Positions 965 to 12,984 of a stretch of 64,000 nt of DNA are shown here, one piece after another. The notes beneath the pieces were generated by a model. That model was not told the DNA's origin. It saw nothing but the letters and a program-made list of their open reading frames with translations, and did no database searches. Source of the DNA: a virus; IMG/VR virus record IMGVR_UViG_3300042368_001013, positions 1 through 64,000 of that record; one strand, given 5' to 3'. The translations under genes were made by a program, and so were the position numbers. The stretch's first letter is position 1. The number at the start of each line of letters is the position of its first letter.

Positions 965-1744
965 ATGAATTCAGAAAAAGAATATATTAGTAAATTAAAT
1001 TTACCAGAATATCCAGATATTTTAAAAATAGATTTACCATCTCGTAAAAGAGAATGGATGGATGTCAATAATGGTCACGCATATAAATGCCTTCCTTTAA
1101 ATGTTGCAAATGGATTTGGGTGGAATATATTATGCCCAATTACTTTTGATGCAACATGGAATGAAAACTTAAGACCAGAAAATTCAATAGAATTTAATTT
1201 TTTTCCAGAAGATAATACTTCGACTACAGAATATATTTTGAATCATAAATTAATATCATCCCACTTTGGGAATGGTATAATTACATTTTCTGGAATGAAT
1301 TACATTCTAAGAACTTCAAAAAATAACAATATTTTTGTAAAGGGACCAACAAATTATTTTAAGCATGGAGCGCAAGCTCTTGAAGCTGTAATTGAAACTG
1401 ATTGGATTCCATATAATTTTACTTTAAACTGGAAGATTACAAAACCAAATGAAAAAGTAGAATTTAAAAAAAATGAACCTATTGCAACTTTTTTCCCTAT
1501 TCCAAGAAATTACTTGGAAAATTTTGAGACTAAAGAAGAAAATCTAGAAATTACAGATGATCTTTATTTAGAGCACCGCAAATGGGTTGAGAAAAGAAAT
1601 GAAACACAAAAAGAAAATAAGACACATAATTTTTATACTCGTGGTATAGAAAATATTGATGAAAATAAGTTGTTTGACAATCATCAACGTGCTATAATAG
1701 GATGTCCATTTAAATTTTTTAAGAAAGACAAAACAGATGAGTGA
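965..1744 (+). CDS. Conserved phage protein, DUF6065-like
   Basis: A 259-residue protein with motifs I associate with a family found beside 2OG oxygenases in T4-like marine phages: ILRTSKNNNIFVKGPTNY, EAVIETDWIPYNFTLNWKIT and EPIATFFPIPR. The family (probably DUF6065) has no assigned reaction that I know of. The start ATG follows tRNA-Tyr by 13 nt. The stop overlaps the next gene by 8 nt, indicating translational coupling with the oxygenase and a joint role. Confidence 0.7.
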   Translation: MNSEKEYISKLNLPEYPDILKIDLPSRKREWMDVNNGHAYKCLPLNVANGFGWNILCPITFDATWNENLRPENSIEFNFFPEDNTSTTEYILNHKLISSHFGNGIITFSGMNYILRTSKNNNIFVKGPTNYFKHGAQALEAVIETDWIPYNFTLNWKITKPNEKVEFKKNEPIATFFPIPRNYLENFETKEENLEITDDLYLEHRKWVEKRNETQKENKTHNFYTRGIENIDENKLFDNHQRAIIGCPFKFFKKDKTDE

Positions 1745-2315
1745 AACAACTTTTCAAGCTAAAACATTTGATAATTTTATTTCTCCAGAAGAAGTTACAA
1801 AACTATTAAATTTTTGTAAAACAACAGATATATGGAGACCTGTTCCCGACAGTTTTTGGGATAAGCGAGTAATTAATTATTATGTTTCTACACCAGAAAT
1901 TAAAAATATTTTGGAATCTTTGGTTATTCGTATACAAGATATAATCATTAAAGAATATCAGTTAGACAAGCCAGTTTATCCTGACACTGTAGATGTTGTA
2001 AGATGGTTTGAAGGAATGAGCCAGGATCCACATTGTGATGATATGTCTAATGTTGTTGGTTGGAATGATAAAATGAAAAATCGTCATTTTGGTTGCGTTG
2101 TTTATTTAAATGATGATTATGAAGGCGGCAGAACTTATTATCCAAATCATAATTTTGAAATTGAACCAAAAAGTGGAAGAGTCGCTATTCATCTCGGTGA
2201 TTGCAACCATATGCATGGAGTTACACCTGTATCCAAAAATATTAGATATACTGTAGCAAGTTTCTGGTCTTTTAACAAGGAAGAAGCCGTTCAAGGTATT
2301 AATTATAAAGCTTAA
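1737..2315 (+). CDS. 2OG-Fe(II) oxygenase (prolyl-4-hydroxylase-like)
   Basis: A 192-residue double-stranded beta-helix oxygenase. Expected ligands are visible: HxD in DPHCDDMSN (about residue 100), the distal His in HMHGVTPV (about 160) and the 2-oxoglutarate-binding Arg in NIRYTVASFW. The family couples 2-oxoglutarate decarboxylation to hydroxylation of a protein or small molecule; the substrate cannot be read from sequence. Similar enzymes are common in T4-like cyanophages. It overlaps the DUF6065-like gene (ATGAGTGA). The tmRNA follows directly. Confidence 0.85.
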   Translation: MSETTFQAKTFDNFISPEEVTKLLNFCKTTDIWRPVPDSFWDKRVINYYVSTPEIKNILESLVIRIQDIIIKEYQLDKPVYPDTVDVVRWFEGMSQDPHCDDMSNVVGWNDKMKNRHFGCVVYLNDDYEGGRTYYPNHNFEIEPKSGRVAIHLGDCNHMHGVTPVSKNIRYTVASFWSFNKEEAVQGINYKA

Positions 2316-2339
2316 ATACTTTTGGTATTGTTGATATTG

Positions 2340-2615
2340 GATTGAAATGCGTACAAGACGGGGGTTCGAATCCCCCCGACTCCATTAGCCTAAGTCAGAG
2401 AATCTGCAATCTTCTGAAAACGGCGAGCCAAGTCCTCGTAGCAGCGGGGCATTTCCCGAAGTCCTAGGCTTCGGGTCACCGGGGTCGAAAGGAATAGATT
2501 GGCGCAAAGTAATGAAGAAGGAGATACCCGACACGGGTAACAAGTGTCGTAAATAAACAGTTGCAAAAAATAATTGCTAACGAATTAGCAATGGCTGCTT
2601 AAAGCAGTGGGGTTC
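2340..2615 (+). ncRNA. ssrA: Circularly permuted (two-piece) tmRNA
   Basis: The tRNA-like 3' half comes first: T arm GGGGG-TTCGAAT-CCCCC (2360-2376) and acceptor CGACTCC (2377-2383). A spacer of about 95 nt follows. Then comes the 5' half: GGGGTCG (2481-2487), which pairs with CGACTCC with one G-T wobble. Helix 2 is supported by TTGGCGCA (2499-2506) pairing with TGCGTACAA (2348-2356). An H-type pseudoknot lies at 2526-2549, then a CAGTT-GCA resume-like site at 2558-2565, a frame ending ANELAMAA-stop (2576-2602), and a hairpin with that stop codon in its loop. The order is that of permuted tmRNAs cut into acceptor and coding pieces. Outer ends are approximate. Confidence 0.88.
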
Positions 2616-4042: not shown

Positions 4043-4903
4043 ATGATCAAAGCTGTAGGTGATAAATTCTATGTTTTCAATTCAACAGGAAAAAAAGTTC
4101 TTGGAAAACATTCATCCAAGAAAAAAGCTGTTGCACAATTGCAAGCAATTGAGATATCAAAAAAGGAGAAAATGGAAGGGGTGTTCAAACCATTTTCCTT
4201 GTTTGTAAGCGAAGAAATAAAAAGCACTCTAGAATATCACAATACATTAAACCAAACCCTGTGGAATGGTTTTGATATCAAGCCCGAAGTAAGACACAAA
4301 CTATTGGAAATTGGAAGTGCTTGGGCTGAATGGGCTCAAATTCCAAAAGAAGCCATTGCGGATATGATATTGGTTGGTGGAAATGCAAATTACAATTACA
4401 CACCAAAGTCAGACATTGATTTGCACATCTTAATCGATCTTGATGCAATACCTGATTGCCCATCGTACATAGATCAATATCTCAAAGATAAAAAACAACT
4501 TTGGTCATTAACACACCAAATAAAAATTTATGATCAGCCTGTTGAAGTTTATGCTCAAGACATGAACGATGGTTTTGTGAAGAATCAAGGTGTCTTTAGT
4601 TTGAATCGGGATTCTTGGTTATCTGAACCAGTATATAAAGATATAAGTCTGAATGATCCATATACTTTACAAAAAGTCGAAGATTATATGGATCAAATTG
4701 ATAATCTTATCAATAGCAATGCAGATGTTTCTGTTTTTAAAGTATTAAAAAATAAATTTAAAGATATGAGATCAGAAAGCATCAAAGTTGGTGGAGAGTT
4801 TTCTCAGGGAAACTTAATATTTAAAGAACTCAGAAACCAAGGATATCTTGATAAAATGAGTAAATATATTCAAAATAGATCAGATGAGAAGTTGAGTCTT
4901 TAA
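4043..4903 (+). CDS. Predicted nucleotidyltransferase with N-terminal small domain
   Basis: A 286-residue protein. Residues 1-40 form a small alpha/beta module (YVFNSTGKKVLGKHSSKKKAVAQLQAIE) that I have seen attached to phage proteins. Residues 105-135 carry a nucleotidyltransferase signature: GGNANYNYTPKSDIDLHIL, with the GG, SDIDL acid pair and a third acid possibly in VEVYAQD. Proteins of this type occur in T4-like phages; the substrate (RNA or protein NMPylation) is unknown. A late promoter starts it, so it may be made late or packaged. Confidence 0.75.
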   Translation: MIKAVGDKFYVFNSTGKKVLGKHSSKKKAVAQLQAIEISKKEKMEGVFKPFSLFVSEEIKSTLEYHNTLNQTLWNGFDIKPEVRHKLLEIGSAWAEWAQIPKEAIADMILVGGNANYNYTPKSDIDLHILIDLDAIPDCPSYIDQYLKDKKQLWSLTHQIKIYDQPVEVYAQDMNDGFVKNQGVFSLNRDSWLSEPVYKDISLNDPYTLQKVEDYMDQIDNLINSNADVSVFKVLKNKFKDMRSESIKVGGEFSQGNLIFKELRNQGYLDKMSKYIQNRSDEKLSL

Positions 4904-4940: not shown

Positions 4941-6980
4941 ATGGAAAATAAAAAAGAAAATTTTATTAAAAAATTTTTAAGTAAAGATAAAGATTTTCAA
5001 AAACAGCAAGAAGTTTTATTTAAAAAAAAGAGAATGGAAGAATATTATTCCAAACCTAAAAATAAAATAACAGATTTAAATGAGAATGCAAAAACACAAA
5101 TAATATCTTCAATTGATAAAATTTTTAAAAATACAAAAAATAAATCATTAAATAAAAAAACAAAATCTATTGAAGGATCGTGGACTACACACATGACTCC
5201 TTATGGAATATTTTTTTATAATAAAGAGCAAAAAATTTGGGTTAATAATTTTGGAAAAACGGCAGATGATTTGAGCCAACTTATTGATTTTTATGATCTT
5301 GATTTTATAAGCAATGATCCTTCAATAAATTCTACTGAAAATTATTTTATTTCTGGGTGGGGAGAAAATGTTTTTCGCAACTTACAAATTCCACAAACTA
5401 TAACAACTGCTGAAAAAATTTCTACAGGATATTATAGCATTGTTGCAACTCTTTTAGATGGGTCTATTGTAATTTGGGGCAGTACTCCAGATGCAAATTC
5501 ATATCCAACTACGCTACCAAACAACCCCTCGTTCATATCATCGGGTTCAGAATACTTCTTGGCTATAAATGAAGATCAAACCATAACTCCTCACGCTTAT
5601 GGTGATGGCAATGACTATTTACAAGCAACACCACCTGCTGGTCTTACTGGAGTAATTGATGTGTCTGCTAACTTTAAGAGCAGCTGCGCCTTAAAAGATA
5701 ATGGAGAAATATTTACTTTTGGTGATAATGAATATGGACAGTTAGACTTCCCCCCTGGAATAGGAACATGCATAGATGCCTCAATGGGGGGAGACCATGG
5801 TTCGGCAATTAAGAGCAATTTTGAAGTAGTATGTTGGGGAAACAATGATGAAGGACAGTGTAATGTTCCCGCCGGATTTACAGCAAATCAAGTTATCACC
5901 GGAGACAAATATACTTGTGCATTAAAAGGAGATGGCACAGTATCTTGCTGGGGATTAAATTCTTTAAATCAATGTGATGTTCCAGTTGGATTAAATAATG
6001 TGATCAAAATAAAAGGAAATGCTGCTCACACTGTAGCTTTAAAATCTAATGGTACAGCAGTAGCTTGGGGCTATAATGAATTTGGTCAGTGCAACATATT
6101 AGAGTATGATCTACCAATAGTCGATGTGGATGCTGGATTGTATAGTACGGGATTGGTTTTTTTGAATGGAGATATAAAAATAATATCAACTTCTACTGGA
6201 TTATTGGCACCAGTTACTCCTGAATCACCAATTGACATAAAAGCTAATTTAAGAGTAACAATGGTATTACAAAAAAATGGAAAGACTGTTGTATGGGGTG
6301 CTTTAAATAATCCATTTGGAAGTAATACATTTTCAAAAATAAGAAATGGAAAAGAAGATACGATATATGCAATTAAATCTGATAATTCTTTAGTAACTTT
6401 TGCTGATTATAGTGGCCAAAATGATCCAGACGGAATACCGAGACCCAGCCCATTACCAAATGCAATAGATGCGGATGGTGGTTACCAACATTCTGTTATA
6501 TTGAAACCAGATGGCACGGTTGTTTGTTGGGGTTGGAATTTGTATAATCAATGTGACACACCAGCTGGATTGAGTGATGTGGTGCAGGTTACAGCCACTG
6601 CATATGCAAGCTTTGCTTTAAAATCCGATGGAACTATTGTTTCTTGGGGTGGTAATAACTTTGGAGAAAGAAATATACCCGGTGGTCTTTCTAATGTTAT
6701 AAAAATAAGTGGTGGGTGGTATCATATGATGGCGTTAAAATCAGATGGTACTGTTGTTTGCTGGGGAAACAATGATTTTGGAAGATGCGACGTTCCTGTT
6801 AATTTAAATAATGTAATTGACATAAGTGGTGGAGAAAATCATAGTGCTGCATTAAAATCAGATAGAACTATGGTTGCCTGGGGAAGCAACGCCCAAGGTC
6901 AATTAAATATACCAGCAGGGTTATCAAAAATTCAAAAAATGGATGGCAGAGGAAAAAGTATATTTGTTCTTTATGCCTGA
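4941..6980 (+). CDS. RCC1-repeat (beta-propeller) late protein
   Basis: A 679-residue protein. The first 75 residues are highly basic and helical (KKENFIKKFLSKDKDFQ). From about residue 130 to the end come many RCC1/BNR-like repeats of about 35-45 residues, each with the pattern ALKSDGTVVCWGNNxxGQCxVP. The repeats should fold as one or two seven-bladed propellers. The late promoter argues for a virion-associated or late role such as receptor binding or packaged effector. No enzymatic motif is visible. The repeats diverge in the middle (residues 395-500). It is convergent with the GroES-like gene, with no gap. Confidence 0.8.
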   Translation: MENKKENFIKKFLSKDKDFQKQQEVLFKKKRMEEYYSKPKNKITDLNENAKTQIISSIDKIFKNTKNKSLNKKTKSIEGSWTTHMTPYGIFFYNKEQKIWVNNFGKTADDLSQLIDFYDLDFISNDPSINSTENYFISGWGENVFRNLQIPQTITTAEKISTGYYSIVATLLDGSIVIWGSTPDANSYPTTLPNNPSFISSGSEYFLAINEDQTITPHAYGDGNDYLQATPPAGLTGVIDVSANFKSSCALKDNGEIFTFGDNEYGQLDFPPGIGTCIDASMGGDHGSAIKSNFEVVCWGNNDEGQCNVPAGFTANQVITGDKYTCALKGDGTVSCWGLNSLNQCDVPVGLNNVIKIKGNAAHTVALKSNGTAVAWGYNEFGQCNILEYDLPIVDVDAGLYSTGLVFLNGDIKIISTSTGLLAPVTPESPIDIKANLRVTMVLQKNGKTVVWGALNNPFGSNTFSKIRNGKEDTIYAIKSDNSLVTFADYSGQNDPDGIPRPSPLPNAIDADGGYQHSVILKPDGTVVCWGWNLYNQCDTPAGLSDVVQVTATAYASFALKSDGTIVSWGGNNFGERNIPGGLSNVIKISGGWYHMMALKSDGTVVCWGNNDFGRCDVPVNLNNVIDISGGENHSAALKSDRTMVAWGSNAQGQLNIPAGLSKIQKMDGRGKSIFVLYA

Positions 6981-12435: not shown

Positions 12436-12984
12436 ATGGACTATTTGACGAATTACTACAAAAATTTATCAGAGCAACTTCAGAATAAAGTCAATATGCT
12501 TTCTTCTCAAATAAAATTGTTGAATGAAGATGACTGGTGGAGAGATCCCCAATTTAATGCTCCTGTTCCACAAGAGCGTGGAGTAGATCCAGCACGAGGA
12601 ATTATTCCTTCAATAGATGATGTCAACCCACCAGAGTCAAACCCAAAAAGAGTAACAGCTCCGCCACCAACTAGAAATCCTAAACCAAAAAAACCTGAAT
12701 CAGCTGAAGAACCTTCAGAACCTGGAGACCCAAATGAAGAATGGGACTTCCATTTTATCAGAGATAATTGGTATAGAATATGGAAAGATCAATGGGAAAG
12801 ACTATATGGCAAAGACAAATTTGTAGATGATATGAATAAAGAATTTGAAAGAATGATTCAAGAAATGGAGCGAATATATAAAAAGACACGCGGACAATAT
12901 GGTTCAAGAGCACCAATTTCTAAATCATGGCAAAAAGCCGTAGAACATTTCTTTAAGTATTTCGTTCAACCAACTCTTGCGTAA
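12436..12984 (+). CDS. YYKNL-tagged late protein, proline-rich middle
   Basis: A 182-residue protein. Residues 1-36 (MDYLTNYYKNLSEQLQNKV... to LLNE) are almost identical to the start of the protein at 26820-27176, after which the two diverge. Residues 60-105 are proline-rich; residues 110-175 are helical with many aromatic and charged residues. NLSE/Q in the tag fits the (I/L)xE rule of T4 gp21 cleavage. The late promoter and shared tag suggest a packaged or capsid-core protein. Confidence 0.7.
   Translation: MDYLTNYYKNLSEQLQNKVNMLSSQIKLLNEDDWWRDPQFNAPVPQERGVDPARGIIPSIDDVNPPESNPKRVTAPPPTRNPKPKKPESAEEPSEPGDPNEEWDFHFIRDNWYRIWKDQWERLYGKDKFVDDMNKEFERMIQEMERIYKKTRGQYGSRAPISKSWQKAVEHFFKYFVQPTLA

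Follow-up and report, generated by a model that had tools for sequence, protein, structure and literature searches.

Circularly permuted tmRNAs, which come in two pieces, are already known from phages, those of the T4 type included. A two-piece tmRNA has been published for Methylophilales phage Melnitz, which is T4-like and infects OM43 bacteria, and ARAGORN classifies 53 of 133 unique phage tmRNAs as two-piece, with Pelagibacter phage Mosig among those named (PMC9004378). All forms counted, 79 bacteriophage tmRNAs are listed in a database from 2025 (PMC11915505). The enzymes that process two-piece precursors are probably RNase P and tRNase Z (PMC3985003). The intervening segment (IVS) between the halves of a permuted gene is usually taken to be discarded spacer; here about 60 phage genes keep a folded one by selection, and this conserved structured IVS is the new part. 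A sequence-only reading of the locus had recognised a phage-encoded circularly permuted tmRNA, which the Rfam model RF04321, ARAGORN and covariation across relatives bear out, but it had also suggested that the permuted form might be new in T4-like phages, which Melnitz and Mosig, published in 2022, contradict (PMC9004378).

The locus lies in a window of 64,000 nucleotides (the whole stretch of DNA analysed) taken from a viral record of 91,794 bases, and the gene, a circularly permuted two-piece tmRNA, occupies 2324-2644 on the + strand. RF04321 (tmRNA_permuted) matches at 2324-2602 (+) over the full length of the model, 213 positions, with 78.6 bits against a cut-off of 47 and E 2e-13 for the whole window; ARAGORN calls a tmRNA* at 2294-2693 with the tag ANELAMAA*. 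The earlier placement at 2340-2615 had the location right but fell a little short at both ends: the acceptor piece begins near 2324 and the last pseudoknot with its terminator reaches about 2650. The parts of the gene and its upstream setting, with pairing counts from 27 full precursors, are as follows.

641-951, + strand: upstream tRNA-Gly and tRNA-Tyr genes; several relatives have one or both close to the tmRNA.
2312-2318, + strand: T4-late-promoter-like motif TTAAATA, separated from the acceptor piece by 5 nt.
2324-2384, + strand: acceptor (3') piece, with H2 strands, T arm, acceptor 3' strand and discriminator, placed by the RF04321 alignment.
2324-2328, + strand: H2b strand GGUAU, pairing with AUACC at 2524-2528.
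2348-2356 and 2499-2506, + strand: H2a strands, in the acceptor and coding piece respectively.
2360-2376, + strand: T arm, its stem paired in 27/27 with compensatory changes.
2377-2383, + strand: acceptor 3' strand CGACUCC, pairing with GGGGUCG at 2481-2487.
2384, + strand: discriminator A, followed by UUA instead of CCA, which is unencoded.
2385-2480, + strand: IVS, 96 nt, conserved structured RNA, found on 59 other IMG/VR contigs.
2481-2644, + strand: coding (5') piece, with acceptor 5' strand, H2a, H2b, PK1, tag, H5 and last pseudoknot.
2529-2564, + strand: PK1, stems CGACAC/GUGUCG and GUAAC/GUUGC.
2576-2602, + strand: tag frame GCU...UAA (ARAGORN), encoding ANELAMAA*, resume codon GCU at 2576.
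2595-2607, + strand: H5, four pairs, paired in 27/27, one with both-side changes; the tag stop is in its loop.
2608-2650, + strand: last pseudoknot PK2, UGGG at 2608-2611 with CCCG at 2625-2628; terminator-like stem 2616-2644 and T run.

The gene order, 3' acceptor half, IVS and then 5' acceptor half, is that of a permuted tmRNA, as first proposed; it runs T arm 2360-2376, 3' strand 2377-2383, spacer 2385-2480, 5' strand 2481-2487. The other marks of the class are present too: the covariance-model match, an acceptor stem with G3-U70, the T arm, helix 2 and PK1, and a tag frame with a small hydrophobic C-terminus (ANELAMAA*). For the clade subtype (alpha-, beta- or cyanobacterial) no model exceeds its cut-off, the best of the clan being beta_tmRNA (RF01850) at 49.9 bits versus 84; the covariance search that had been suggested for this locus succeeds with the permuted model (78.6 bits) and falls short with the beta clade model (49.9 < 84). 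None of the nine tRNAs of the window encodes CCA. Relatives maintain the tag frame; their tags include ANQLAMAA, ANRMAMAA and AEELAIAA. Within it a hairpin AUUGCU/AGCAAU (2573-2592) is possible, with a compensatory change at 2578/2587 in six sequences, and a subgroup with another frame, GCCGCACCAATGCGG (tag AAPMRMAA), has a possible alternative hairpin; the tag sequence may be constrained by RNA structure.

The same gene is present on 59 IMG/VR contigs besides the window. They were collected by pattern scans of IMG/VR in sequence (T arm plus acceptor; mature parts, which recovered 16 loci; spacer patterns), and since only exact patterns were scanned for, close relatives are over-represented in the set; its members are metagenomic contigs, in part near-identical, and all counts are of sequences and not of events. 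From the IMG contig names we take them to be freshwater phages. The cultured-phage collection gave T-arm-sized or other short matches and the gene in none of its phages, the exact tmRNA pattern has no match in 85,000 bacterial and archaeal genomes, and the permuted tmRNA is in none of 44 IMG/VR records holding TerL relatives, all of them fragments around TerL and hence uninformative on this point. The T arm plus acceptor scan also yielded about 20 other permuted phage tmRNAs. ARAGORN reports no tmRNA in ten loci (L249, L253, L255, L256, L260, L261, L264, L265, L266 and L268) despite their family sequence, some of the ten being cut by contig ends. Because it misses family loci, ARAGORN-based counts of phage permuted tmRNAs are probably too low; permuted tmRNAs are hereby extended to further T4-like phages, and ARAGORN alone misses part of them.

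The halves of the acceptor stem pair at seven of seven positions in 58 of the 59 loci tested, in six sequence combinations, the remaining locus being cut by a contig end; the search admitted only 7/7 pairing, and 58/59 is therefore its success rate. The G3-U70 alanine identity pair, which is used by alanyl-tRNA synthetase, is kept in all 58 paired loci. A 26-row alignment has both-side changes at 3 of 6 tested acceptor pairs, in up to 12 sequences (acceptor counts come from alignment A2 and the 7/7 search; in alignment A6 the subgroups are one base out of register at the acceptor 5' strand). In the 27 full precursors double compensatory changes occur in the T stem, H2a, H2b, PK1 S1 and H5, and PK1 S2 and PK2 S1 are paired in practically all; PK2 S1 is paired in 27/27 yet invariant. 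The agreement of the acceptor, helix 2 and PK1 pairings, which had been noticed in the single sequence, holds up, and all three covary. This covariation between the halves settles that they belong to one molecule and that the permuted-tmRNA reading is correct: comparative sequence analysis identifies the gene as a circularly permuted ssrA, probably functional, of a T4-like phage.

The assignment to a T4-like phage, also proposed earlier, is confirmed by TerL, which is 48-51% identical to that of T4-like cyanomyophages and of Melnitz, and by portal, sheath stabiliser, neck, wedge and tube proteins, which are likewise T4-type. A search of the 92-kb contig for SmpB found none, so that SmpB would come from the host. 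Immediately before the tmRNA, a gene at 1737-2315 (+) has similarity to 2OG-Fe(II) oxygenase families; related families bear the PHROG names 'DNA endonuclease' and 'endonuclease V', which seem to have been carried over. Near the tRNA/tmRNA region, 4941-6980 (+) encodes a 679-amino acid protein of repeated ALKSDGTVVCWG-type units that is RCC1-like by eye, and a search for relatives of the neighbouring protein at 4043-4903 found none.

Among the 59 family loci, 35 have the motif TAAATA with its end 4-6 nt ahead of GGTATTG (background, 1.5%); it is missing there in the other 24, some of which have a tRNA gene directly upstream. The spacing between T4 late promoters and the transcript start is known, and applied to this TAAATA it would let transcription begin on the first base of the acceptor piece or right beside it. 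With the start there and the terminator at the last pseudoknot, the spacer alone would have to be cut out.

The sequence-only reading had missed that this spacer is itself a conserved structured RNA. In its 59 IMG/VR contigs the IVS always lies between the two tmRNA halves. The spacer motif is present in all 16 loci recovered by mature-part patterns, all 58 matches of a loop-free IVS pattern are in permuted tmRNAs, and the core model R1, run against 16 whole phage records, has one strong match in each, in the tmRNA; R1 also recovered L106, which ARAGORN misses. At a mature-part identity of 75-85%, family spacers share on average 73-77% identity. Control spacers from other phage permuted tmRNAs, compared at equal mature identity, reach 15-51% and are thus unrelated: by the same method shuffled spacers of similar length score about 50%, and spacers of unequal length lower. 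Throughout the recovered set the left junction, UCCAUUAGCC, does not vary (it was demanded by the later spacer patterns, the loop-free one included, and not by the mature-part or first spacer pattern), and on the right the linker that leads to the acceptor strand shows free variation. The sequence around the proposed 3' cut, UCCAUUAGCCU, is nearly invariant. Among the 85,000 bacterial and archaeal genomes the IVS pattern has 10 matches, about the chance expectation, none of them inside a tmRNA; an IVS model applied to 399 Pseudomonadota genomes (a weak test, with 12 candidates scored per genome) reaches 24.5 bits at best, E 0.007 per genome, which is chance level. The IVS matches nothing in Rfam, ribozymes and riboswitches included, at E up to 10, and no description of its fold was found in Rfam or the open-licence literature; as a conserved folded RNA it appears to be undescribed. 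Its elements in the window are these.

2388-2424, + strand: P0 (2388-2390/2422-2424) and hairpin P1 (2395-2400/2412-2417), with loop CUGCAA at 2404-2409.
2434-2449, + strand: hairpin P2 (2434-2438/2445-2449), with loop GCAG at 2441-2444 opposite CUGC at 2404-2407.
2455-2475, + strand: hairpin P3 (2455-2461/2469-2475), optional, with both-side changes at five pairs.

Comparative analysis marks the IVS as a selected RNA domain consisting of P0/P1, P2, a P1-P2 kissing loop and an optional P3. P1 has both-side changes at five pairs and the family loop CUGYRA; P0 (GCC/GGC), which encloses it, is invariant, a putative pairing. P2 has one pair with both-side changes (2438/2445, seen as GC, AU and UA) and a loop ending in RCAG. 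P3 is absent from IVSs of 71-73 nt (nine loci) and present in those of 95-99 nt. The loops of P1 and P2 are complementary (CUGC/GCAG) and change jointly to CUGU/ACAG in L106/L282/L284 and in L283, a compensatory change of C-G to U-A on two backgrounds, L283 differing in stem, acceptor and tag; this argues well for a kissing contact, although the numbers are small. The covariation score and the numbers of double-change and paired cells exceed those of all 500 shuffles, and the signal is destroyed when the structure is slid by 1-3 columns; pair counts and pair-type counts alone, in the core alignment, have no clear excess over shuffles. The fold is more stable than that of shuffled sequence (z -2.6). 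A pseudoknot between GCCUA at the start of the IVS and UAGGC in the P3 loop was considered and dropped: A changes to U in L221, L228 and L232 with no change in the partner, and P3 is lacking in some loci. Twister, hammerhead and HDV-like cores, judged by eye, misfit the conserved bases, and the Rfam search was empty.

We consider it likely that the gene yields a functional two-piece tmRNA, probably late-transcribed, whose IVS guides its own maturation in cis. Transcription late in infection would start from the T4-late-type promoter; the 5' end of the transcript would coincide with the beginning of the acceptor piece and the 3' end with the terminator fused to the last pseudoknot, leaving only the IVS to be removed by a cut after discriminator A2384, where a host enzyme would add CCA, and by an RNase P cut at G2481. 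Knowledge of the tmRNA family suggests that the RNA is charged, binds SmpB, rescues ribosomes and tags proteins: the two pieces, charged with alanine, would work with SmpB of the host, releasing ribosomes from broken mRNAs and appending ANELAMAA as a signal for degradation. The IVS would hold the acceptor strands together and present the 3' cut. This role in cis is proposed because the searches place the IVS nowhere else and because conservation extends to the left cut site; judged by location and conservation, it is most likely that the IVS assists or directs maturation.

A bolder view, tentative and on the whole unlikely, is that the IVS represents a new functional RNA class, possibly a self-cleaving ribozyme, that puts maturation of the precursor under phage control. 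Its specific form, a new ribozyme that excises itself at least at the left junction (UCCA/UUAGCC), independently of host RNases, is decidedly improbable. It would suit the compact ~68-nt fold with its kissing contact, the invariant unpaired bases (UUA, UAA, GGCGA, AAGU and CA) and a left junction that is fixed where the right linker drifts; against these stand the empty Rfam search, other permuted tmRNAs that manage with host RNases, and a 2',3'-cyclic phosphate end, which would need repair before CCA addition. The conserved loops, the stable hairpins and a fold stabler than shuffles would also be compatible with an excised IVS that persists as a stable small RNA and acts in trans as regulator, decoy or sponge, but a free-standing regulator should at times turn up outside the tmRNA gene, which this element does in none of the scans, and its conserved loop bases are already used by the kissing contact; we give this reading little credence. 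The tag-less tmRNA of mycobacteriophage DS6A is reported to be a decoy (PMC11915505), and the product of the present gene might similarly block host tmRNA or SmpB in place of working as a tmRNA; conservation of the tag frame, of the stop in the H5 loop and of PK1, together with relatives' tags that end in MAA or IAA, makes this very improbable. Chance resemblance, or halves from two different genes (the latter named by the sequence-only reading as its own possible undoing), has a negligible probability, for although a lone ARAGORN call can be a false positive, the covariance-model E of 2e-13 and the covariation of the halves in many loci refute it. Maturation guided in cis by the IVS remains the preferred reading, and it opens a testable question: how two-piece tmRNAs are cut, and whether phages control the cutting.

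The closest described system, Melnitz, shares the permuted gene in a T4-like phage (TerL 50% identical) and the order of acceptor piece, IVS and coding piece. It differs in encoding CCA and in its IVS, which measures 145 nt by our determination, has complementary ends that extend the acceptor stem, carries an open reading frame and is not matched by R1. In Melnitz (L269; 985-1437, +) a frame starting in the IVS continues into the coding piece; the IVSs of L110 (tmRNA 12449-12972, -) and L153 (tmRNA 4307-4783, +) hold open reading frames of 72 and 51 codons, stop included. Permuted tmRNA genes may use the IVS to carry cargo, which is protein-coding in some phages and, in the window's family, a structured RNA. 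The other phage permuted tmRNAs (L084, L098, L102, L103, L107, L110, L148, L153 and others) have the same order, an alanine-type acceptor and a tag, but mostly encode CCA, and their spacers, 5 to 197 nt long, are mutually unrelated and often extend the acceptor stem. Within that of L098 (tmRNA 1514-1919, +) lies a second stretch that looks like a T arm, TTGGGTTCGATTCCCACC, and may be left over from a tRNA. In L134 (8180-8490, -) the entire IVS is UUUAC, between discriminator and acceptor 5' strand; because this phage permuted tmRNA manages with 5 nt, an element like the structured IVS is not generally needed. Relative to RF04321 and RF01850, the window's gene has its last pseudoknot fused to the terminator and a structured IVS outside both consensus models. 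Some T4 tRNA genes also leave CCA unencoded. With CCA-less phage tRNA genes the window's gene shares the missing CCA and a T directly after the 3' end, but its trailer is a conserved structured RNA that joins the halves of one molecule.
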